A stretch of 64,000 nucleotides of DNA from Pegea sp. RAD2-039 (lineage: Eukaryota > Chordata > Thaliacea > Salpida > Salpidae): assembly GCA_034620365.1 (NCBI GenBank), contig JAQGEQ010000270.1, positions 992,001-1,056,000 on the forward strand, given 5' to 3'. Made by a program: the position numbers and the translations under genes. The notes beneath the pieces are model-generated. The model had not been told where the DNA came from and searched no databases. It worked only from the letters and a program-made list of their open reading frames with translations. Positions 10,834 to 59,013 of the stretch are shown here, one piece after another (the first letter of the stretch is position 1; each line of letters starts with the position of its first letter).

Positions 10834-13340
10834 CTAAACAAAAAGAAATAAAAAAAATATTATAAAAGAAAATATGCAAAAAATAGCTTTCTTTATTTAA
10901 ATTTCTACAATATGTTATTAGTCAGAATATATACAAAAACTCAAATATAGAATACAAAATATTTAAAGTATAACATAAATATTGAGAAAAATTATAATAA
11001 CAATGAGCAACAGTTGATCAGAATTAATACAAAAAAGCCTTACAATAAAAGCTTTAAAATACTACAAAAGTTAGATTAAGTGTTTATTTTTTTTAAATAC
11101 GATTTAATGTAAACGTGTATCTTAAAGTACACATTGTTGTAATATGACTAATTGCGCCTTAGTTAAAAACTTTATAGATAAGTCTGTTAAGTGTTTCAAC
11201 CATCTCAATATCGCTTAAGACTGTAAAAACATAATGGAGTTTAAACAAAAAAGACTGAAATATAACTAGTATTTTTGATTGAATCTACAGTGTACATTAT
11301 GAACGATTCTACAGTTAAGTAAAACAAAAACTTTTATAAAACCAATTTTGACATAATTCCATGCAACAATTTGTCGGAGAGTTAGAAACAGTTTTTAAAG
11401 TACGGTCAAGTTTGTTTAAAATTATTTGTATAAAACTTGAGTAATTTAGCGGAAATTACGTCTCTTAACTAAGATAAACTTGTATAAAAAAGTAATTTGT
11501 ATTTTTATAGAAGTAAATCAAACTTTGAATATACGTGTTTACTTAAAAATTGTTATATTCCTGATAAATATCGTAATTTTGTAACCATTTTTGATTTAGT
11601 GAGAATTTTAGAATCTGAAACTTATATATGATGGACATCAGAAAGTGATTTCTATTACCAGCAAATAAGAAAGCTTACTTTTTTGTTTAACAAGAAAACT
11701 TTTAATAACAAAATCGATTTGATCTAAAAAATCTCCCTAGTTAGTTAAAGTTTTTATTTAGCTTTATTTTGAATCTTTCTTTTATGACAATGTTGGTTAA
11801 ACATTATAATAATAAATGTCAAAATGTTTTAAAAGACATGCACTTGAACGATTAAGTTTATTCTGCTTTGTATATTGATTAATACCTAACTTGTACATTT
11901 ATCAATAATTTTGTTATATCACTTTATATTTACATTTGAAACTTTTGATTCGCTGCAACAAAGATTAAGGGGTAATGAATTAAACATTCTGTTATTACAA
12001 ATTAAATTATAATAATGATTAAAACTAAGGGACTTTCCATGTATTAGTTTATCAAAAAACTTAAACTAACCCTCAAAAGAATGTTTGGCAGTCATATGGT
12101 GCTATGTATGAGTTGAATTTGGGTATATTTGTAGTTGTTTCTGGCCAGAAGAAAAAACCAAAGAAATTTATTTTTTTACTATATATATTTTATATATATA
12201 TTTTGGATATTTATAAAATCTCGATTATTGCCACAAAATTGATAGATGTTCTTTTTAAAACAAAATCCTGAAACAACCGAACAAATGTGAAAATACATGA
12301 AAACATAAGCTCAGCACATAGATTCAAGCTGATAGAATAATTTTTATGAAAAACCTTCTCTCAGTGCTAAATGTATTTACTTAATCTAGTCATTAGTAGA
12401 GTTAAAATAAATAGAATAATCTCAATTTTTTGTAGGACATTAGTTTTTTACCCTTAGTCTATTAAAAGGGGTAACTTTTAAAGTGCATCGAGCTTATTTA
12501 AAAAGATTTTAATTTTTTAGTATGTAATTTATTGGGTGCAAGTTTTTATCTTTATCATCTTTGATCATCCTTCGTGTGTTTTTCTGAAGAACGAATATCA
12601 AACTAAATTTGATAAACCTAAATTGTAAAATAATGCTAAAAGTACTAAACTTTTAAAAGCTAAAAGATACATGTGAAACGGGTAAAAAGATTAAAATGAT
12701 AAGTGGCAAGTATAGATTTACTTCACTACGTTTTTTGTTCTTATTTTATCATCATTTTCAAGTCAATCAATTTTAATATTGTAATATACTGGCTTATTTA
12801 AATGTTAGTGTGTACTAGCTAGTTACAAAATATTTTACTACTTATAAGAATTTTACAAACTAAATTTTTGTCTTTATTATATATTTTTACTCTTGTTTTG
12901 TAAGTTATGTATAAAAAACTTCACATGTATCACTAGATATTATTTATTTGGCTCTATTTTTAGAAATGTTTTATTTGAGAAAAAATTGTACTTTTTACTT
13001 AACTTTTCATTTATATAACTTTTCAAAAGTCAGTTTAATTTTGAAAAACTGAATATAACTTGATCAGTGTACTTATTATCAAGGCTGGCAACACTTAAGA
13101 ACGATTTTAATCTATACTCATTTTATTAAAGCTTTAATCTAACTTTATTTTATTGGCTTTTCTCAAATACTTTTAGTTATAAATAAAAAAGTATTTGACA
13201 AGTTTTCTATGTTTTATAAAAAAAAAACTTCAAATTATTCTCACAATTATCCCAACAAGTTTTAATTGTTTCTCTCTTTAGTGACTAAGCTAACTCCTAC
13301 TTGTTTTGGTTGTTAAATAAATCTTCTTGAAACTAAAGAT
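10834..13340. other. 2.5 kb divergent intergenic region
   Basis: Separates minus-strand tafazzin from the plus-strand importin-alpha-like gene, so it should hold both promoters. It is strongly AT-rich, with many homopolymer runs and a short TA-rich run near 12180-12205. A ctctctttag acceptor-like site at about 13280 may be part of the downstream gene's leader. No reading frame or repeat supported. Confidence 0.5.
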
Positions 13341-14729
13341 ATGAATAATGAATCTAAAAAGAAGGTAACTGAGTACAAAAGTAATTGCAGCAGCTGCGAA
13401 AGCTTGCGGATCAAAACTAGAAGATTCTGTGAGAAGGAATCAAAGAATAATAGACTCGGAATATTCCTAAAAAATCGATCAATAACAGAAGTAAACTCTG
13501 ATACAGATTTGAAACTTGTTGAAGAAATTAAGAATGAAATGGAAAGCAGTGATAGCTCAGTTTGTTTAAAAGCTGTTCGAAAGCTAAAGTTGTTCTTACA
13601 AGAAAACAACTCTCTTACCGCACAAGATAGATTATCTGTGGTGACGTCACTAGTCACATATCTCAACCACGTGATCAACAAGGAACTTGATTACGAATCA
13701 GCTTCAGTTATTTGTCTCATTGAGCTGAATCATTCAGTCATGGCAATTTTACGAAACGCTTTTTGTTCATTAATCGATCTTTTTGCTTCTAAACACCTCG
13801 GCACACGCCACCAAGCGCTTAAAGCCCTGACTCGTTTAATAGCAGAAGACTCCGAAATACTGGACACCGTATGGACCAATAAGATACTTGGCTTTATGTT
13901 TGACTTCACAGACTCGATCATATCCGAAGACACATGTCTTCTTGCATCTAATTTGCTCTTCCATTTATGCCTCAAAAACTCCTCACGTCATTTCTTTGCG
14001 TTTGTCTTCCAACTTCTCGGCACCTTTTCCACCTTCTACAGTTGTTACAATCGACCAGTTACCATGATGATTGTCAAAACTGTCCTCCATGTCAGTAGAA
14101 AGATGATTGAAGCAGTGATCGAGTCTGAAATGGTTGATCATCTGATTCGATGGCTTAATCATCCTGATCATGACGTCACACTTGTATCAGTGACCATTTT
14201 CACCGAAATTTTTTCCGTGTCACATCGTAGGTCTCGGGAGATTCTATCTGATCTCTTGAGACACATTCCACATCTGATCAATCATCCTAACAAACCAATC
14301 GCTAGTCAAGCTTTACTGATGCTGTGCAATCTAACATCGACTCGCTGTCCATGTTTGCTGCAAATGCTGGTCTCGTCCGATCTGGTCAGATGTGCCCTTA
14401 ATCACTTTACCAGTCCTGACCGCGTCCTTCAAGTCAGAGTCTCTCAAGTTGTCAGCAACTTAGTGGTACGGAAAGATGCGCGATTTATCGAATATCTTCT
14501 TAAAAACCGAATCCTTGATTTCTTATCTAACTTGTTGGATTGTGAAGATCTTCAACTTCTTTCACTTCTTCTTTCTTCTTTAAACTCTATACTTGAAGTT
14601 AGATCCACAGAGCTACAAGATCAGCTTAATGATAAACTTGTAGCAAAGATGCAACGACTGAAGATGTCTGATTGTGATTTTATCTCGAAGACTTCTGATT
14701 TGATCTTAAGAAAATGTTTATCTTTTTGA
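13341..14729 (+). CDS. Divergent importin-alpha-like armadillo protein
   Basis: An intronless frame of 462 residues. The N-terminal ~50 residues have the basic spacing of an importin-beta-binding domain (KKKVTEYK, LRIKTRRF, then FLKNRS). An armadillo-like helical solenoid follows: EEIKNEMESSDSSVCLKAVR aligns with the first ARM repeat of karyopherin-alpha. Near the end, FIEYLLKNRILDFLSNLLDC and LSSLNSIL match the last ARM repeats, and DFISKTSDLILRK matches the C-terminal helix. The family's W-x3-N ladder, which grips classical NLS peptides, is almost wholly absent, so ordinary cargo binding is doubtful. The identification is by eye and rests on collinearity rather than strong identity. A degenerate retrocopy that stays open, or a lineage-specific importin, would both fit. 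Confidence 0.6.
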   Translation: MNNESKKKVTEYKSNCSSCESLRIKTRRFCEKESKNNRLGIFLKNRSITEVNSDTDLKLVEEIKNEMESSDSSVCLKAVRKLKLFLQENNSLTAQDRLSVVTSLVTYLNHVINKELDYESASVICLIELNHSVMAILRNAFCSLIDLFASKHLGTRHQALKALTRLIAEDSEILDTVWTNKILGFMFDFTDSIISEDTCLLASNLLFHLCLKNSSRHFFAFVFQLLGTFSTFYSCYNRPVTMMIVKTVLHVSRKMIEAVIESEMVDHLIRWLNHPDHDVTLVSVTIFTEIFSVSHRRSREILSDLLRHIPHLINHPNKPIASQALLMLCNLTSTRCPCLLQMLVSSDLVRCALNHFTSPDRVLQVRVSQVVSNLVVRKDARFIEYLLKNRILDFLSNLLDCEDLQLLSLLLSSLNSILEVRSTELQDQLNDKLVAKMQRLKMSDCDFISKTSDLILRKCLSF

Positions 14730-49366: not shown

Positions 49367-49777
49367 TTAGAGAAGTTTTAGATCTTTAGTGACTTTGTCT
49401 AAACAAGTAGAGTGAGATGGTCCCAAAGCAAGGACAGTAATAGAACCAGCTGCAACTTGACTTCGACCAGCATCTTTAACCAAATAAACAGTAATTCCTA
49501 ATTGTTCAGCTTGTGATTTAATTGCTAATAAAGAAACTAGATTGTTGGTTCGTAGAACAACTTTTGCAGATCCTTCTTTCTGCCACGTCTCAAGTGCTTC
49601 AGTGTTAGCTTTCAACTTTGTTTCAACTTGATGCTTGTAAGTTCCTAAAGTAGCATGAGAACACTGGGCAGCAATCTTACCTTTTTTCATGCCCAGATCG
49701 GTTCTAACCACCAAAGCTAATTTGTGAGATGAACGTTGAAAACATCGGTTTAATAAATCGCTTACAAGTTTAATCAT
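49367..49777 (-). CDS. Second PTRH2-type peptidyl-tRNA hydrolase, no membrane anchor
   Basis: 136 residues, intronless. It has the Pth2 fold and motifs: LALVVRTDLGMKKGKIAAQC, SHATLGTY, the conserved VYLVKDAGRSQVAAGS and LALGPS. Pth2 enzymes release peptides from stalled peptidyl-tRNA. Unlike its neighbour it lacks an N-terminal membrane segment; a short basic stretch (MIKLVSDLLNRCFQRSSHK) precedes the domain and could be a weak mitochondrial presequence. Its ATG is only 45 nt after the stop of the upstream PTRH2 gene, with a good acceptor (tttaaatttacag) ending two bases before it. The two domains are clearly divergent, so the duplication is old. Confidence 0.92.
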   Translation of the reverse strand: MIKLVSDLLNRCFQRSSHKLALVVRTDLGMKKGKIAAQCSHATLGTYKHQVETKLKANTEALETWQKEGSAKVVLRTNNLVSLLAIKSQAEQLGITVYLVKDAGRSQVAAGSITVLALGPSHSTCLDKVTKDLKLL

Positions 49778-49822
49778 TGCTGTAAATTTAAAGAAGTTTG
49801 ATTAAAGTAAAAAACTAAAAAG

Positions 49823-50338
49823 TTACAGCAATTTCAAGTGACCAGTCACAAGATCTAAATCTTGTTGATAAGCTGGACCTATGCCTAGGACAGTAGTTGA
49901 GCCAGGTTCAATTTGAGTCCGACCAGCATCTCGAATAAGCGAAGCCGTCAAGTGTAAATGTTTGGCTTCTTTGTACAATTCTTCTAATTGTCGTTGCGTT
50001 TGGCATTTCACAACGATCTTTGCACTTCCACTACGTTTCCACAGTTTCAACTTCCGCTTGGCATGCTTTCTAGCTTGTTGATAGCAAGCGATTGCAGCAT
50101 GAGCACATTGAGAAGCGATCTTCCCTTTCCCCATCTTCAGATCTTGTCTCACTACGATCACCATCTTTAACGAATTAGAACCATTAGAAGCATCAGAACC
50201 ATCCGTCGAATCACTGTATTCCCCTGAATCCGAATCTTCAGGACTCTCTTCCATGGATGGAGTTTTTAGCAAATAATTGAAAATGAAAGCAGCCCCGAAA
50301 CTAGCAAGAATGCCAGACACAAAATAAACATAATCCAT
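49823..50338 (-). CDS. PTRH2: PTRH2 (Bit1) peptidyl-tRNA hydrolase 2, membrane anchored
   Basis: 171 residues, intronless (human 179). An N-terminal hydrophobic anchor (about residues 4-24) is followed by an acidic Ser/Asp-rich linker that contains SGEY, as in human. The Pth2 domain follows: MVIVVRQDLKMGKGKIASQC, AHAAIACY, SLIRDAGRTQIEPGSTTVLG, ending VTGHLKLL. In vertebrates PTRH2 sits in the mitochondrial outer membrane, hydrolyses peptidyl-tRNA and influences anoikis. It is the middle gene of a tight same-strand row: UTP14 ends 81 nt upstream and the second PTRH2-like gene begins 45 nt downstream. The acceptor-like tgtgttgatag lies seven bases before the ATG. Confidence 0.96.
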   Translation of the reverse strand: MDYVYFVSGILASFGAAFIFNYLLKTPSMEESPEDSDSGEYSDSTDGSDASNGSNSLKMVIVVRQDLKMGKGKIASQCAHAAIACYQQARKHAKRKLKLWKRSGSAKIVVKCQTQRQLEELYKEAKHLHLTASLIRDAGRTQIEPGSTTVLGIGPAYQQDLDLVTGHLKLL

Positions 50339-50419
50339 CTTACACCTATCAACACACCAACAAGTTTAGTTATATGTTAGAACTATTTATATATAATATA
50401 GCTAAAAATGAAAACATAA

Positions 50420-52081
50420 TTATAAAAATGTCTCTGATTTTTTGGCAGCGCTTTCAGGGTCCATGGGGTTGATGTAGGTTCCGGTGACAGTAGAGAATCT
50501 AGGACGGATGTTATCTTTGAAAACAGATGGTGGGTTCCACGTGGAACCGATAGGAGCAGCAAGAGTGCGCTCAAACTGTTGCTTACTTGTGTAAGGAAAC
50601 GGCAAGTTATTGACCTGATGTTTGGCGGTAAAACTACTACGCGAGGCTTCATTTATTATCACGTGATTAAGTTTACGGTCCTTTCTAGCTCTTGGTAAAT
50701 CAGTCTTAGCCAAATTGGTAAATTTGGTTTTTCTTTTGCGTTTTTTCGACGATGGTTTCAAACCACAACCAGCCCAGCTGCCCCAACCAGGCATTTGTAA
50801 CTCGTCAAGTCCAGCTGATATTTTCTTGTCAGCTGATTCAATTTTCTTTTTATTTGCTACGAATTCAGCAACAATGTCATCATCAGCAAAAGCTTCCACG
50901 ATTGTCATACTTTCAGCATTCAGATTTGAAGTCTTCTCAAACTTAGAGATTGTTCGAGATTCTTCTTTGGATTCCTTTTCAATCAGAACTTCATCTTTGA
51001 CTTCAACTTCTTTTTCAATATCATCTAGAGCTTCTCGAAACTTCTCATCTGACGATGGTTTGAGAGTATCCTCCGGCGGGTTGTTGTTCGAGAGCGAGAA
51101 CCAAGGATTGATCTGATCAGGAGGTAACACAGCAGAGGTACACTCCTTCGACTCCGGTTCGATCTCATCTTCTGAGCTTGATACTTCTGCTATCTTAGTT
51201 GTCAGTTGTTGATGACGCGTCATCTGCTCATTGATCTTTTCACGTGTCGCTGCATCATGTTTCGCGATTACGCTTCGATTCTTTTTCCATTTGCTTCCAT
51301 TAGTAGAGTGACGTAATGAAGCACGTTCTTCAGCGCGCGTTTTCTCTACATCTACCTCCATACCTTTCTGTTTCTTCTTGTTGCTTTCAATCAGGCGCTG
51401 GTTTCGACGGTACTTTTTGCTTTTAATCTTTCCTTGCCTTTTCATCTTCGATTGTTGATATGAAACGAAAGCGCGATGCTTGCGTAGTTGCGCGTGTAGG
51501 TCGCGCGCTTCTGCTAAACTCATCTTGGATTGATTGAGAGCTTGGTGCTCAGCGACACTCAATCCTTCCGGCGTCTTCTCCACACATTTGTTACCAAGCA
51601 GTAATTGGCTGATCTCTTCTTCTAACTTGCTCTTTTGCTTATTTTTCAGATTTTTAGAAGAAACAGGAGAGACAGTGGAGATAGTAAGTGACTGGTGACC
51701 GAGTGGGAAAGACAAGTGGTCAGCTTTACGGTTGTCTTGAACAACCTTTTGCCACTTGCTACTTGCTTCTTTCATCTTTTTGTACTCCACAACCCTTTGA
51801 ACACCTTCACTTGCTGCTTTACTCAACGGAGCACTGAGCAAGTTCATCTTCAAACTTCTCCGAACTTGATTCTTTACTGTCTTCAACTTCCCTGCCTTGC
51901 CTTCACTCCCTACTAACAACTTTTCGACTTCAATCACATTTCCAGCTTTTCTATCAATTAACGAAAACTGTGAGACATCTTCTGAAGCTTCACTTCTTCG
52001 AGACTGCTTTGTCTTCTCATCTTCATCTGGTAACCAACCAAACGTCTGTAGAAGAGAATCCATTTTTTCATCTTCATCCAT
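50420..52081 (-). CDS. UTP14: UTP14, small-subunit processome protein
   Basis: 553 residues, intronless. The open frame extends upstream to 52177, but that part is hydrophobic and AT-rich and contains an acceptor-like ttattattttcag; the acidic start MDEDEKMDSLLQTFG at 52081 fits the family. Landmarks: the basic segment KIKSKKYRRN, the RAEERASLRH helix followed by SKWKKN, and the diagnostic LQMPGWGSWAG box. UTP14 works in the nucleolus in 18S rRNA processing and activates the DEAH helicase DHR1/DHX37; that role is from the family. Human UTP14A is about 770 residues, so the linkers are shorter here. It is the first gene of the UTP14-PTRH2-PTRH2 row. Confidence 0.94.
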   Translation of the reverse strand: MDEDEKMDSLLQTFGWLPDEDEKTKQSRRSEASEDVSQFSLIDRKAGNVIEVEKLLVGSEGKAGKLKTVKNQVRRSLKMNLLSAPLSKAASEGVQRVVEYKKMKEASSKWQKVVQDNRKADHLSFPLGHQSLTISTVSPVSSKNLKNKQKSKLEEEISQLLLGNKCVEKTPEGLSVAEHQALNQSKMSLAEARDLHAQLRKHRAFVSYQQSKMKRQGKIKSKKYRRNQRLIESNKKKQKGMEVDVEKTRAEERASLRHSTNGSKWKKNRSVIAKHDAATREKINEQMTRHQQLTTKIAEVSSSEDEIEPESKECTSAVLPPDQINPWFSLSNNNPPEDTLKPSSDEKFREALDDIEKEVEVKDEVLIEKESKEESRTISKFEKTSNLNAESMTIVEAFADDDIVAEFVANKKKIESADKKISAGLDELQMPGWGSWAGCGLKPSSKKRKRKTKFTNLAKTDLPRARKDRKLNHVIINEASRSSFTAKHQVNNLPFPYTSKQQFERTLAAPIGSTWNPPSVFKDNIRPRFSTVTGTYINPMDPESAAKKSETFL

Positions 52082-52312: not shown

Positions 52313-52810
52313 TAGAAATGAGTTGAATTAGTCTTTTTTGTTTACCAACTTCAATACTTCAGATTGAACATTTTTTATATCTGAGGTCCAGTACTTTTTC
52401 AGCCATAATCTATATTTGTATAAAGATGAATGGAAAACTTTCTGACTTAAGTACTTTAAAGCAATACCTGGATTTAATTGATATATTATTGGAAAACTAC
52501 ATTCTACCATACAATTTATTATTCTTAAGTCACCACCAGCTTTTATCAACGTGTCTAACCCATCAAAATCATCATAATTTTCATTCAGAGTTTTTCCATA
52601 AAGTGAAAATTTTTTTTGAATATTTTGCTCATTATTATCCCAAATTTTCTTCAGCCAATTTGTGTACTTTTTATCAACTTTATTAAACAGATTTTTTGAT
52701 AATAAGCTGAAAGCCTCTTCTTCATCAATATCATAATAAACATTGAATGAAATTGTTTTCATAACTTTAATCACATTGTTAACTCCATCAGCCATTGTCC
52801 ATAAGCTGAT
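52313..52810. repeat. ~500 bp segmental duplicate, copy A
   Basis: Matches 55278-55775 at a constant offset of 2965 bp with only three internal substitutions plus one at the right edge, and no indels. It spans the last two repeats, the stop codon and about 15 bp of 3' flank of the larger repeat-protein gene. Sequence similarity ends abruptly on both sides. Confidence 0.95.
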
Positions 52811-54556
52811 ATCATCTTCTTTGTTAGGCTCTATAATACTTACTTTATGTTGATACATATCAATGTTTCTATCAAATTCATTTTCTGAAACCTTTTTATC
52901 TACAAGGCTTATAGCTGTTGATTCGATACCATTAGATGAATTTGTTTGTTTATATTCAGCTTGAAAAGTTTCACTTAACCAAATATATTCAATACATTTA
53001 ATATATTTTTCATTATTTTTACCAAATACTTTCATACTTAAATCAGAAGCAGCTTTAAGGAAAGCTACATTTCTAGAAAATGATGGATCAAGCATCAGCT
53101 TAATAAGCTTACCTTCACTTTGATGACCAGAAAGAAAACCATCATAAGAAATTAGAGCTTGATTGACAAGCTTTACTACACAACAAATATCCTCAATATT
53201 ATTTTTTATCATTCTGTCCAACCACTGATATTCATCAGAACCAGCTTTTTCAAATAGCTTTTGAGATAAACTACTTACAGCAGCTTGTTTGTTTGTCAAA
53301 TATGAATCCATAAATGAACTTTCTATCATTTTTTTAAGAGCACAGTTTATTCCACCAACAACATTCCAGTTGTATGGCCTTTCTTGTGTATTGGTTTTCT
53401 GTAAAACTAAAGAACGAACTTGGTGAACATTATTTATCCATACATGCTTAACCCATTTGGAATTATTTGTTGAATTTTCACCAAATAAAAGTAAGCAAAC
53501 TTCTTTAATACCATCTGCCATACTTGACTTGTTTTCCATTTTTTTGGCGAAATCAATATCAATCATTTTCTCAACTACATTTTCTACACTACCAACTAAT
53601 TTCCAAACTTTTCGACGAGGCAGAACTTCTTTCCTGGTAGCTCCTTTCTTTCTATGACTTATTTTTTGACGTTTAGGCTGGCTTGGTTCACCACCTCCAA
53701 TAATATTCCTAGTAATACGTTTTTCACTAACAAATTTTTTTATCTTAGATTGAATTTCATCTATATTGCTTTTCCATAAGTAATTAAGCCAAATTGAGTC
53801 TGGTTCATCTTTACCACCAAACAAATCTTTATTAATCCTTTCAATAACTCTCATAGCATAAGGTAAAGAGCACTTTTTTTGAAAATCATGATCAACCATA
53901 ACTTTCATAACTCTATCAATTCCACCAGCTTTTTCTAATAGACTTACATCTTTAACTACATTTTTGTTGTTATCACTTTGCCCAAATAAAACATCTAGAT
54001 AAAGATTATCAACATTTGCAAACCAATAATATTTTAATAATGAGGTTATATCTTCATCCACATCATGATGTACAGCTTTACACAAATTTTCAAAAGTTAA
54101 AGATACACTAAAAAGTTGTAAGTTTTGATAAAAATTACATTCAATCATCAGATTTTTCAGCTCACAAATACCTTCAGCAGATTTTAAATATTTCAGAAGA
54201 TCAATTTTACATTTTTGCTTAATTTCAAAACTTTCTTCACTTGAACTTGGTAAGCTTTTCAATCCCCATTTAAAGTAATGTTTAGAATGTGAAAATGTTC
54301 GATTAATAACAAGCCGTTGAACATCCTCTTGATTCCGTCCCCACATACGTTCTAACCAGTCAACATTTTTCGGTTCTTTATTACCATACAAACTTTGTGA
54401 AAGCATTAAAAAAGCATATCGTTTATTAGCTAGAACATTGCCTATAAAATTTGTCTCAATAATTTGAGTTATCAAATTTTCCATTCCACCTGGTATTTCT
54501 GAAATACTTCTACGATTTTGTTTGGAAAATCTTTGCAAAACTGAAGCTTCCATCAT
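52328..54556 (-). CDS. Unknown protein of eight ~80-residue repeats
   Basis: Not recognised. One uninterrupted frame of 742 residues, built of eight copies of one module starting at about residues 23, 125, 211, 322, 401, 482, 590 and 674. Each ~60-residue core reads G-G-x7-M-x4-F-x10-A-x3-L-S-x2-L-F, a short loop, then W-L-x3-W-x2-N-x4-Q; M falls at module position 10, F at 15, F at 35, W at 45 and W at 50 (plus or minus 2). The pattern suggests a helical bundle repeated as a solenoid. Linkers vary; the one after repeat 3 is very basic (PKRQKISHRKKGATRKE) and looks like a nuclear localisation signal or nucleic-acid contact. No signal peptide, membrane span or catalytic motif. The last two modules are nearly identical to those of the neighbouring gene. 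Confidence 0.85.
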   Translation of the reverse strand: MMEASVLQRFSKQNRRSISEIPGGMENLITQIIETNFIGNVLANKRYAFLMLSQSLYGNKEPKNVDWLERMWGRNQEDVQRLVINRTFSHSKHYFKWGLKSLPSSSEESFEIKQKCKIDLLKYLKSAEGICELKNLMIECNFYQNLQLFSVSLTFENLCKAVHHDVDEDITSLLKYYWFANVDNLYLDVLFGQSDNNKNVVKDVSLLEKAGGIDRVMKVMVDHDFQKKCSLPYAMRVIERINKDLFGGKDEPDSIWLNYLWKSNIDEIQSKIKKFVSEKRITRNIIGGGEPSQPKRQKISHRKKGATRKEVLPRRKVWKLVGSVENVVEKMIDIDFAKKMENKSSMADGIKEVCLLLFGENSTNNSKWVKHVWINNVHQVRSLVLQKTNTQERPYNWNVVGGINCALKKMIESSFMDSYLTNKQAAVSSLSQKLFEKAGSDEYQWLDRMIKNNIEDICCVVKLVNQALISYDGFLSGHQSEGKLIKLMLDPSFSRNVAFLKAASDLSMKVFGKNNEKYIKCIEYIWLSETFQAEYKQTNSSNGIESTAISLVDKKVSENEFDRNIDMYQHKVSIIEPNKEDDISLWTMADGVNNVIKVMKTISFNVYYDIDEEEAFSLLSKNLFNKVDKKYTNWLKKIWDNNEQNIQKKFSLYGKTLNENYDDFDGLDTLIKAGGDLRIINCMVECSFPIIYQLNPGIALKYLSQKVFHSSLYKYRLWLKKYWTSDIKNVQSEVLKLVNKKD

Positions 54557-55277
54557 TCAGAATAGACTATTTATTGGATTGCAAAGTTTATAAACGGTTT
54601 TAAAATACTTCATCAAATTAAGAAATAAATAACCTACAAAAAAATGTATATATTAAAAAAATATTAAAAAAAAGTTACCATAACAGTATCTTATGAATGC
54701 TGGTCTAAAAGTGGTATCATAACATAAATGTCTAACAAAAAATATCAAAACAATAACAGTAAAAATATGTTAACAAAATAATAATATAAAACAGATGTGA
54801 ACAAATAAGAGCAATAAGTTATTGACAACCAACAATCATACAATCTATTTTGGTAGAATTATATAGTCAGAATCACTAGCTAGAAAGAAGTTCTATAAAG
54901 GAACAGCCATAATTCCTTCTTATGGACTTTTAATTATAGTAGATAGTAGCATGGCTTCTCCCTTTAAACCTACTGTTCAATAACATTAAAGTTAGTTGGC
55001 ACATTAAGCTCAAGGGTTAAAACTTTCCTACCCGAGTTTACTACTAGAGCTTTAACTTTTCATTAACCTACCACAAGGCAGTAACAATGCTTTTGCAACA
55101 TAAAATACATTTTCAAACTTTATAAGATTTAATAAATATAACTTAAAGTATAAAGCAAAATCAAATTGATACCAATTTTGGGTAAACTAAAAATATTTTA
55201 ATAAGAAATTTCAAATTCTATTCACTTTAATACAAATTTAGCAACTCTGTTTTAAATACTATGTTTATAAGGTTTAT
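54557..55277. other. Spacer between the two repeat-protein genes
   Basis: About 720 bp, AT-rich, between the 8-repeat and 3-repeat genes. No conserved promoter element or repeat recognised. Confidence 0.45.
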
Positions 55278-55775
55278 TAGAAATGAGTTGAATTAGTCTT
55301 TTTTGTTTACCAACTTCAATACTTCAGATTGAACATTTTTTATATCTGAGGTCCAGTACTTTTTCAGCCATAATCTATATTTGTATAAAGATGAATGGAA
55401 AACTTTCTGACTTAAGTACTTTAAAGCAATACCTGGATTTAATTGATATATTATTGGAAAACTACATTCTACCATACAATTTATTATTCTTAAGTCACCA
55501 CCAGCTTTTATCAACGTGTCTAACCCATCAAAATCATCAGAATTTTCATTCAGAGTTTTTCCATAAAGTGAAAATTTTTTTTGAATATTTTGCTCATTAT
55601 TATCCCAAATTTTCTTCAGCCAATTTGTGTACTTTTTATCAACTTTATTAAACAGTTTTTTTGATAATAAGCTGAAAGCCTCTTCTTCATCAATATCATA
55701 ATAAACATTGAATGAAATTGTTTTCATAACTTTAATCATATTGTTAACTCCATCAGCCATTGTCCATAAGTTGAT
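55278..55775. repeat. ~500 bp segmental duplicate, copy B
   Basis: Partner of 52313-52810. It carries the last two modules, the stop codon and a short 3' flank of the three-repeat gene. Beyond position 55775 the two genes differ entirely at the nucleotide level, although their more upstream modules are related in protein pattern. Confidence 0.95.
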
Positions 55776-56099
55776 CTGATTTTGTTCAGTCATTTCATTT
55801 GAGTTGTTCTGTTCAGAAATAATGTTTAATGTAGAAAATTCTTGTACTCTCTTTTTATTGTTATACCAAACATTTTTCAACCAATCTACATAAACTGATT
55901 TAATTTCTTTAAATAAACCTAGACATAATTTATCAAAAGCTTCTTTTTCATTTAATTGTAAATCTTTTAAAAATGAAGTTTCTGATAACTTTTCTACAAG
56001 ACCCTCTCTTTCTCCAACCAATATCCAGAACATTATTGCTTCATCCTCTTTGATATCGACATTAGAATCAATTTTACCACTGTCTAATAGGTCCATCAC
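55293..56099 (-). CDS. Paralogous protein of three repeats
   Basis: Not recognised. 268 residues: a 28-residue lead (MMDLLDSGKIDSNVDIKEDE and on), then three copies of the module seen in the gene at 52328-54556, at residues 29-115, 116-199 and 200-268. The first module (GEREGLVEKLSETSF, LCLGLF, WLKNVWYNN) is diverged; the other two match the neighbour's last two except for four residues (V/M, N/K, Y/S and S/N at the junction). Same orientation as the neighbour, 736 bp upstream of its start. It could be a truncated daughter copy, the source of the larger gene's end, or a partner kept similar by gene conversion. Further 5' exons cannot be excluded. Confidence 0.8.
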   Translation of the reverse strand: MMDLLDSGKIDSNVDIKEDEAIMFWILVGEREGLVEKLSETSFLKDLQLNEKEAFDKLCLGLFKEIKSVYVDWLKNVWYNNKKRVQEFSTLNIISEQNNSNEMTEQNQINLWTMADGVNNMIKVMKTISFNVYYDIDEEEAFSLLSKKLFNKVDKKYTNWLKKIWDNNEQNIQKKFSLYGKTLNENSDDFDGLDTLIKAGGDLRIINCMVECSFPIIYQLNPGIALKYLSQKVFHSSLYKYRLWLKKYWTSDIKNVQSEVLKLVNKKD

Positions 56100-59013
56100 A
56101 AAACAATATATAATAATGAAGTATCACAAAAAGCAAAAGCTGTTTATAAATAAATACCTAAAATAACTAATTTCAACAGGTTTCTTGATTTATTTATTGT
56201 TTTTCAGATAAGACATACAAAGATTGAAAAGTTTGATTGATATTACATTTTTAAAAAATATAAATTTATTTATAAATCAAAATAAAAGACTTATAATAAA
56301 ATTAATTGTTATTGAACTAAAAAAATTGTTAAGAAGTTAAAATCAAAATGCAAAAAAATAATAATAAAAATAAAACTAGCAAATCATAAAATAGTAAATC
56401 AGTAGATAGTCTACTAATCAATATATACTGTATTTAAAATTATTTAGTTAAAAGTACTTAACCTAAAAATACAAAAAAAAATTAGCAAATCAAGAACATT
56501 TTTTTTATTGTATGTCCTTTGATCTAAACATTTATGCTGATTTTGTGACTTTCTTAGCATAAGTTAAAATGAAATAACGGGCCTAGGAGTCTGTAACCTG
56601 GTATTACAGCACACGGCTATAGTAAGAAAATATGGCGTTTTCATTAGTTGTTCAAAAAAAGTAAATTTGTTAGACAATATTAATAATAATAAAATAGTTT
56701 TACCTTATATAAAAAAATATATTTAAAAACATCCTTGCTTGAAATGCATGAAATATTCTTTACAAATGTTAAGACTGATTATGACAGGAAAAGTCTAGAC
56801 ATACGAAAAAGGTTTTAAGTTTTTAGCAATTATGTTGTAGCAAGATTGAGCAATGAGATGATCATAATCTAAAACAAAAAAGGAATCATAGAAAATATTA
56901 TAAAGCTCAATATTACGTTCCAAGATCATTTACTAAAAAAGCTTCCCTTAGATGTGACATTTCCTTTTCTTCATACAAAAATTGTCTGTACAAACTTAAT
57001 ATAATGTAATTGCAATATCAGGCCCTTTGTTCGACCTCGCACTACTATTTGAAAATTATTAATGGTTCTATTATCTTAACTTCAATGACTTCTTAAAGAT
57101 TGTAATCCTTCATTCGTTCTAAAAAGTTTGTTGACTAAAATTAAATCAAATAACCACTTTAATAACACCCTGAGATCAAATCGCTTTTGAAACAGGTAAC
57201 CACAGTTTGTAATCTTTTTTCCCACTTTATCACTACACCAAATTTTATGGTTTAATTAATTTGTTAATAGATGTTGTATAGTACCATCATTTTTCTACTT
57301 ATTTCGTATTTTATTGTATTCCTTACTTTTACATACCTTGCATAAAATACCTTTGTAGTGTTCCTACTTTTCTCTATACTGCTTATGTTTAACTGTGGTA
57401 CTTTAGACCTTTCATCATTTTCTTTATAGTTATGTTAATCTGTGTTCACTATAAGACTTGTATAGTTTTTTATAAAGAGTGATACTTTAAATAAATCATC
57501 GAATAAATAAAAACAAGCTTCTTATATAAAGGAAATTGTATTCATTCAATGATTTATTAATCAACTAGATAGACCCACCAAAGTCTCATTTTTGTGTTCA
57601 ATTGAAACCTAAATTATTTTTTGGGCTGTTCAAACAAAAGTTTTCAATGTACTTTTATACAGACATTGAATTCACTATTTGAAATTTTGTTTTTTATAGG
57701 GATTGATTTCTAATTGCTTGCTATCAGATGAAAAGTTAAGTTATGAGACTTATTTACTTCATAAGTTTAGTGTTTACATTTATGTAAACAGCAATATCAT
57801 TTTGTGGCAGATTACATATCATACGATGACTATCTTCAAAGTTTTGAAACCGCTGGCTTTAAATTCTTTACCAGACTTAGATTAAGATAAGTTTAAGAAG
57901 TTAACCATCGTTGCAGATATTTTTTATAAAGTTTATTTTTAAAAGGTAGTTGGCCCAAATAAGTATTTGAAAAATATTTTTAACATTTCTTTGAGTACAT
58001 ATCACTTTTACACTGACTACTAACTAGGCAAAACTACTAAAGTAAATTAGATTTTTAAGAATAACAATTTTTTCATATAAGTTTTTTTTAATCGATTGAT
58101 GTTCACAGGTAAACATTTTCTTGATTATTGCAGCGATTATTTTGTTTTTCTTTTTTAGCATTAAAAATGTTTTATGATGTTCCAAATTAAACTTTCTTTG
58201 TATATTTAGATAATTAAAGTCTAATAGTAGTTAAATTTGAATTATAGCTTTATTGTTTCTTGAATATTATTAATTAATGTAACATGAAGATGCTTTCAGT
58301 AAACGTATGGATAAATCTTCAAATTTCAGGTTATTTCGACACCTCAAAATCGAACTCAAAATTACTTGCATTAATCTCAAGAAATCAAATCATCTTTATA
58401 CTGGCTGAATCAAAAATACTTTAAACTTGTTAATATTTTTATACTCATGTTTCTTTGTGTAATTCTTCAACAGCTAATTTCACTTCAGTCGTTTCCTTTT
58501 CAACAAACTTTTATATTCTAGTTCATACTAACAACTGTTTAATAACGAATACAGATGATATTTGTGTAAAGATTTTTATTCACGATTCGTAAGAACCTTC
58601 AACACTAATCAAAAGTTACTTGTCTGTATCTTGGCTTGACCTTTTTAGCTATTTATCCGATTTTTGAGTTCTAACCAGGTTTGTTGGTATTAAAAATCAG
58701 ATATAAACTCGAAGCTGTTGATTATTTATTATGAACGTAATAGTTGCAGTTAGAAAATTTGCAAATCAGATGATACATATTCGAACAAAATTGTTAAATT
58801 GTTCCCAATAAATAAAATGTAAATCATTTGAATTTGAAAAAAGATTTGTTATTTGAATGATTAAAAAATAAAATTGTAAATCTGGCTATAAGAAGCAATC
58901 AAGAAAAAGTTTAATGAAATTTTCAAAATTGAAAAACAACAAATCTATAAAATTAAAACAATTTCATCTAATCATCAGTAAACATGCAAAGTACTTAGAA
59001 TTCAGAACTAAAT
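56100..59013. other. 2.9 kb intergenic region
   Basis: AT-rich DNA between the upstream end of the repeat-protein pair and the 3' end of the FATP gene. The plus-strand frame 57703-57885 has no support. No repeat copy or RNA gene identified. Confidence 0.5.

Follow-up and report, generated by a model that had tools for sequence, protein, structure and literature searches.

Two adjacent genes of a Pegea salp encode tandem copies of a small, predicted all-helical module

A repeated module in two neighbouring genes

The window analysed here, a 64-kb stretch of DNA from the salp Pegea sp. RAD2-039 (contig C4, positions 992001-1056000, within a 105.7 Mb genome of 387 contigs), carries on its minus strand, in the order gene 2, gene 1 and UTP14, two single-frame open reading frames (ORFs) that encode tandem copies of a helical module of ~80 residues, eight in gene 1 and three in gene 2. 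Gene 1 (52328-54556, minus strand; protein P0001) encodes 742 amino acids with modules R1-R8, and its start codons, ATG ATG, lie immediately 3' of a TGA. Gene 2 (55293-56096, minus strand) encodes 267 amino acids from its ATG with modules B1-B3; its protein P0002, as analysed, includes 9 residues upstream of that ATG. The original prediction, made from the DNA letters, had drawn the pair at 52328..56099; its start holds, and its end moves to 56096, where the ATG of gene 2 lies, giving a span of 52328-56096. Its count of eight plus three modules in two adjacent same-strand ORFs also stands, whereas its treatment of the eleven as independent copies does not, because two gene 2 modules copy the last two of gene 1 at 99.2% DNA identity, leaving nine distinct modules.

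We scored each of these nine against a profile built from the other eight, with 2000 shuffles per module (1853-1990 per 2000 listed with a score, the remainder scoreless). These leave-one-out scores ranged from 25.5 to 59.0 bits and were reached by 0 of 2000 shuffles for every module, the best of the 9 x 2000 shuffles scoring 15.5 bits. A profile of all nine recovered eight domains in gene 1 (71.8-92.2 bits) and three in gene 2 (89.5-94.3 bits), these scores not being independent, since the same modules built the profile. Along the minus strand, gene 1 encodes R1 (54296..54502, residues 19-87, a hidden Markov model (HMM) domain; leave-one-out 49.9 bits), R2 (53984..54190, residues 123-191; 33.8 bits), R3 (53735..53941, residues 206-274; 48.4 bits), R4 (53396..53608, residues 317-387; 49.3 bits), R5 (53162..53371, residues 396-465; 48.0 bits), R6 (52928..53137, residues 474-543; the lowest-scoring, 25.5 bits), R7 (52595..52804, residues 585-654; 59.0 bits) and R8 (52343..52549, residues 670-738; 53.7 bits). 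Also on the minus strand, gene 2 encodes B1 (55821..56030; 52.0 bits), which is distinct from all gene 1 modules, B2 (55560..55769), a near-identical copy of R7, and B3 (55308..55514), whose protein sequence is identical to that of R8.

Pairwise identity among the nine distinct modules is 15-33% (mean 22%), and the positions that had been proposed as fixed are conserved among them: F15 in 9/9, W50 in 8/9, M10, A26, F35, W45 and N53 in 7/9 each, G1 and G2 in 6/9 each and Q58 in 5/9. The conserved columns of the nine-module alignment are chiefly hydrophobic residues or glycine, as expected for a buried core. A constant core length, which had also been claimed, is exact in five of the nine (R1, R5, R7, R8 and B1); the others depart from it, always between F15 and A26, by one extra loop residue in R2 and R3, two extra in R4 and two fewer in R6. 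The linkers vary, as had been noted: module starts are spaced 79-111 residues apart and the linkers are of very different length, which points to beads on a string rather than to a rigid solenoid.

Net charge lies between -0.3 and +1.9 in seven of the nine modules, the remaining two being R8 (+5.5) and the acidic R2 (-6.1). The strongly basic linker behind the third repeat, described earlier as resembling a nuclear localization signal (NLS), is present in gene 1 only (53585..53680, minus strand, residues 293-324, its end overlapping the start of R4) and has a net charge of +11 over 30 residues, in windows that begin at residues 293-295. This one linker hints at the nucleus, and the gene 1 product may be imported there. 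The further suggestion of nucleic-acid work finds no support from the modules, seven of nine being near neutral and none matching a DNA-binding family. With modules mostly near neutral and a single basic linker, a multivalent protein-binding scaffold is favoured over a nucleic-acid-binding array.

The copied DNA is a 498-bp segment that spans from a module start, through two modules and the stop codon, to 15 bp past it, lying at 52313..52810 in gene 1 and, 99.2% identical, at 55278..55775 in gene 2; the flanks of the two copies are unlike. The copies differ at four codons, all amino-acid changing (non-synonymous divergence (dN) 0.010, synonymous divergence (dS) 0). B1 is nearest to R4 (33% identical; tree support 89/91, not starred) and not to R6 (16%), and none of the seven inner branches of the module tree is starred. 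Because B1 is closest to R4 rather than R6, we infer an order of events in which gene 2 may have existed as an older paralogue before gene conversion or a new duplication replaced its tail.

Predicted structure and search for relatives

AlphaFold2, given an 80-residue R7 construct with the nine modules as its alignment, returned an all-helical model with a mean predicted local distance difference test score (pLDDT) of 89.2 and a predicted template modelling score (pTM) of 0.77 (pLDDT 78.3-89.2 across five models), with helices at construct residues 2-11, 14-24, 27-33, 35-47 and 52-79. Foldseek comparison of this model with 350,542 PDB chains gave none at E<=10, and BFVD gave five matches, the best at E 7.2; a VIA look, which compared one chain only, adds little. 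Because short helical domains can score poorly, the missing Foldseek match is not proof of a new fold. A structure prediction and fold search of one module and of the full protein had been proposed with the original prediction, and its single-module half yielded this confident model with no PDB match at E<=10.

Profile libraries were scanned sequence-to-profile only, with HMMER filters that drop most matches above E ~0.1, and 'orphan' is used here for the collections searched. Neither the two proteins nor the nine modules matched Pfam under E 0.04, and nothing significant came from PHROGs (best E 0.074) or NCBIfam (best E 0.017). The weak library matches (YWFCY 0.041, RnlA_toxin_N 0.11, ESAT6_3 0.15, Bac_globin 0.2, CbiN 0.21, Gins15 0.017, phrog_34840 0.074, phrog_10293 0.11, PRK08668.1 0.77, phrog_167 4.5 and others to 2.9) point to different families and were taken as chance. 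Among PDB sequences, matches to the designed cTRP5 (best E 0.0066) were pieces of 21-23 residues, none passing alone, and a bacterioferritin/ferroxidase match (E 0.008) covered residues 81-198, a linker plus R2; both were taken as chance, and a longer module alignment reached a best E of 0.039. IMG/VR and GTDB genomes (both scanned once by short peptide patterns, which detect close relatives only) gave no relative, nor did phage records, and among the publications on orphan or repeat families that were listed none concerns this module, judging by the titles. The significant profile or fold match that had been named beforehand as refuting the proposal thus did not appear, and the proposal of an apparently undescribed module under structural constraint is supported by the absence of a significant profile-library or PDB match together with the confident helical model.

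In the salp's own genome, searched with a tool that scores only the top candidates from a permissive first pass, the whole of gene 1 as query matched the two genes only. B1 as query found five places at the locus, its own or others, at E<=0.002, one more at E 2.2 and one elsewhere at E 0.34, and the module consensus found all 11 modules at E<=0.0044, with the next match at E 0.70. The recovery of 11/11 indicates that the search reaches divergent modules, although the consensus was built from the same modules. No second locus was found in this genome. A candidate third member at C21:2359869-2359982 (E 0.70; 17.9 bits with the module profile) keeps the LF-W-W-N spacing, yet was read as chance because it lies in another frame and crosses the start of a longer ORF with a P-loop protein, which we take to be PSTK-like. 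A 341-residue ORF at L035 8959-9981 (minus strand) encodes a protein that starts with a P-loop; we presume it to be PSTK-like, and it would suggest selenocysteine machinery. The 10 kb surrounding a further candidate at C247:496668-496796 (E 0.34) held no frame above 6.9 bits, and 100 kb of adjoining C4 sequence (60 kb towards higher coordinates and 40 kb towards lower ones) contained no further module (best 7.8 bits).

Genomic surroundings

By Pfam, the neighbourhood comprises genes for MYG1, neurochondrin, SNAP, a presumably tafazzin-like acyltransferase and an ApaG/YccV protein, together with a pair of adjacent PTH2 genes and UTP14, a set that would suggest an animal. MYG1, neurochondrin, UTP14 and PTH2 are likewise single-frame, so the missing introns of genes 1 and 2 are nothing unusual here. 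Regional G+C is ~28%, and frames of 742 and 267 codons stay open there; the G+C of gene 1 by codon position (0.40/0.28/0.20) follows the falling pattern seen in MYG1, SNAP and TAZ. Two stretches, one of 1501 bp within gene 1 and the 721 bp between the genes, each match a single place in the genome. The RNA fold of the stretch between the genes is not notable (z 1.0), and no tRNA or Rfam families were found in the window. Across the genome, Blo-t-5, Chitin_bind_4 and COX1 had no match; for the first two this is weak evidence, since control profiles matched nothing either.

Next to gene 1 on the minus strand, UTP14 and the two PTH2 (peptidyl-tRNA hydrolase 2) genes lie head to tail (49370-52081) with gaps of 81 and 45 bp; the two PTH2 genes themselves (49370-50338) are 45 bp apart, and the product of the first is extended at its N terminus by a hydrophobic and acidic stretch. 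Upstream of gene 2, 56884-57472 is an old dispersed repeat with at least 41 further genome matches (39 places once adjacent pieces are merged) at 67-79% identity, the best 40 of 187 candidates having been scored. A single-frame armadillo-type protein of 470 amino acids (Arm, E 3.9e-5) is encoded at 13317-14729 on the plus strand. A pyrimidine-rich YAG (at least 9/14) stands within 60 nt before the ATG in seven of nine other genes, against 28% of random non-coding positions, at a distance of 0 nt in TAZ and 2 nt in the FAM173-like gene and PTRH2b; genes 1 and 2 have no such YAG within 60 nt. These upstream YAGs hint at spliced-leader trans-splicing or introns in 5' untranslated regions; of two known spliced-leader sequences, nematode SL1 and bdelloid rotifer SL, the genome showed no exact copy.

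A candidate lineage-restricted scaffold and its alternatives

Computation supports the repeat and the fold. Building on them, we propose a lineage-restricted family in which strings of a small all-helical domain on varied linkers act as a multivalent scaffold, a plausible reading on which, binding, location and partners being inferred, we are evenly divided. Each module would fold alone round a hydrophobic core of F15, A26, L34-F35, W45 and W50, the G-G turn would cap a helix, and the modules would hang as beads on flexible linkers, their divergent surfaces each binding a partner. The gene 1 product would probably be nuclear, via its basic linker, and that of gene 2, which has no such linker, cytoplasmic or a competitor. 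The pair would have grown by internal module duplication, with two whole modules recently copied or gene-converted between the genes; a lineage-restricted gene enlarged through module duplication is the most likely origin. We advance only tentatively a stronger version, in which the module would represent a novel domain family, perhaps with its helices arranged as in no solved structure so far; it would have originated within a single lineage, where duplication of modules turned it into a multivalent nuclear scaffold. Several results weigh against the scaffold proposal: the alignment behind the R7 model comprised just nine paralogous modules; the single-sequence AlphaFold2 model of full-length gene 1, the other half of the proposed structural check, was useless (pLDDT 34.4); the codon-position G+C of gene 2 (0.35/0.23/0.24) gives a weaker coding pattern; and the differences between the segment copies, at only four codons, do not show selection of either kind.

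The nearest known designs are tandem helical-domain scaffolds such as the FF-domain proteins PRPF40/TCERG1, which likewise hold several divergent copies of a small helical domain on linkers of different length; here, however, no FF or other Pfam match was found, and the module's five predicted helices, the last of 28 residues, differ in order and lengths from those of FF. The repeats of ARM, HEAT, TPR, PPR and ankyrin proteins are also tandem and helical, but such solenoids stack short units tightly, whereas module starts here lie 79-111 residues apart on linkers of varying length, and hmmscan of both proteins and the nine modules singly gave none of these families at E<=10, in line with the earlier failure to recognise any of them. 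Small helical domains do diverge past sequence detection, and an arrangement of five helices ending in a long one bears a loose resemblance to SAM, so the module could have drifted below the detection limit from a helical protein-protein domain already known, for example SAM, death-fold, FF or a repeat of HEAT/ARM type; the sequence-to-profile scans and the missing Foldseek match, which does not show that the folds differ, leave room for this. Against it, Pfam gave no SAM, death-fold, FF or HEAT/ARM match at E<=10, no PDB profile match was convincing, and Foldseek returned none of them from the PDB at E<=10. We therefore regard such a hidden relationship as unlikely, though a serious contender.

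The remaining alternatives appear weaker. If the modules were far-diverged tri-helical DNA-binding domains of Myb/SANT or MADF type, gene 1 would encode a multi-domain DNA-binding nuclear protein; its NLS-like linker would fit, and the order of a helix, an aromatic, a helix with A/W and a helix with W loosely resembles the MADF consensus by eye. Yet Pfam, with the HMMER filters in place, gave no Myb/SANT or MADF match at E<=10 for either protein or any of the nine modules, Foldseek gave no PDB chain at E<=10 even though solved Myb/SANT domains are numerous, and most modules are near neutral, with R2 acidic; PF10545 (MADF) also had no match in the genome, weak evidence, since control profiles matched nothing either. 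We consider this improbable. A viral or mobile-element origin would suit intronless genes that are orphan in the collections searched, recently part-duplicated and, in gene 2, 0.8 kb downstream of the old dispersed repeat, but it is very unlikely given nothing significant in IMG/VR (close relatives only), phage records, PHROGs or BFVD, the single genomic place of the gene 1 and intergenic stretches, and conserved neighbours that are also single-frame. That 498 bp are 99.2% identical could even suggest an assembly error that copied modules into gene 2, or frames in decay; both frames are open, however, the copies differ at four sites with unlike flanks, and gene 1 stands independently of the copy, making an artefact scarcely credible.

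Orphan genes are common, and the multivalent scaffold would be a modest finding pending orthologues, expression or partners. If true, it would show on a small scale how a lineage can create a new foldable domain and expand it into a repeat protein, and one recent step of copying, two whole modules as a single 498-bp unit, is clear. The way in which lineage-restricted genes come to have a stable fold could be tested on it.
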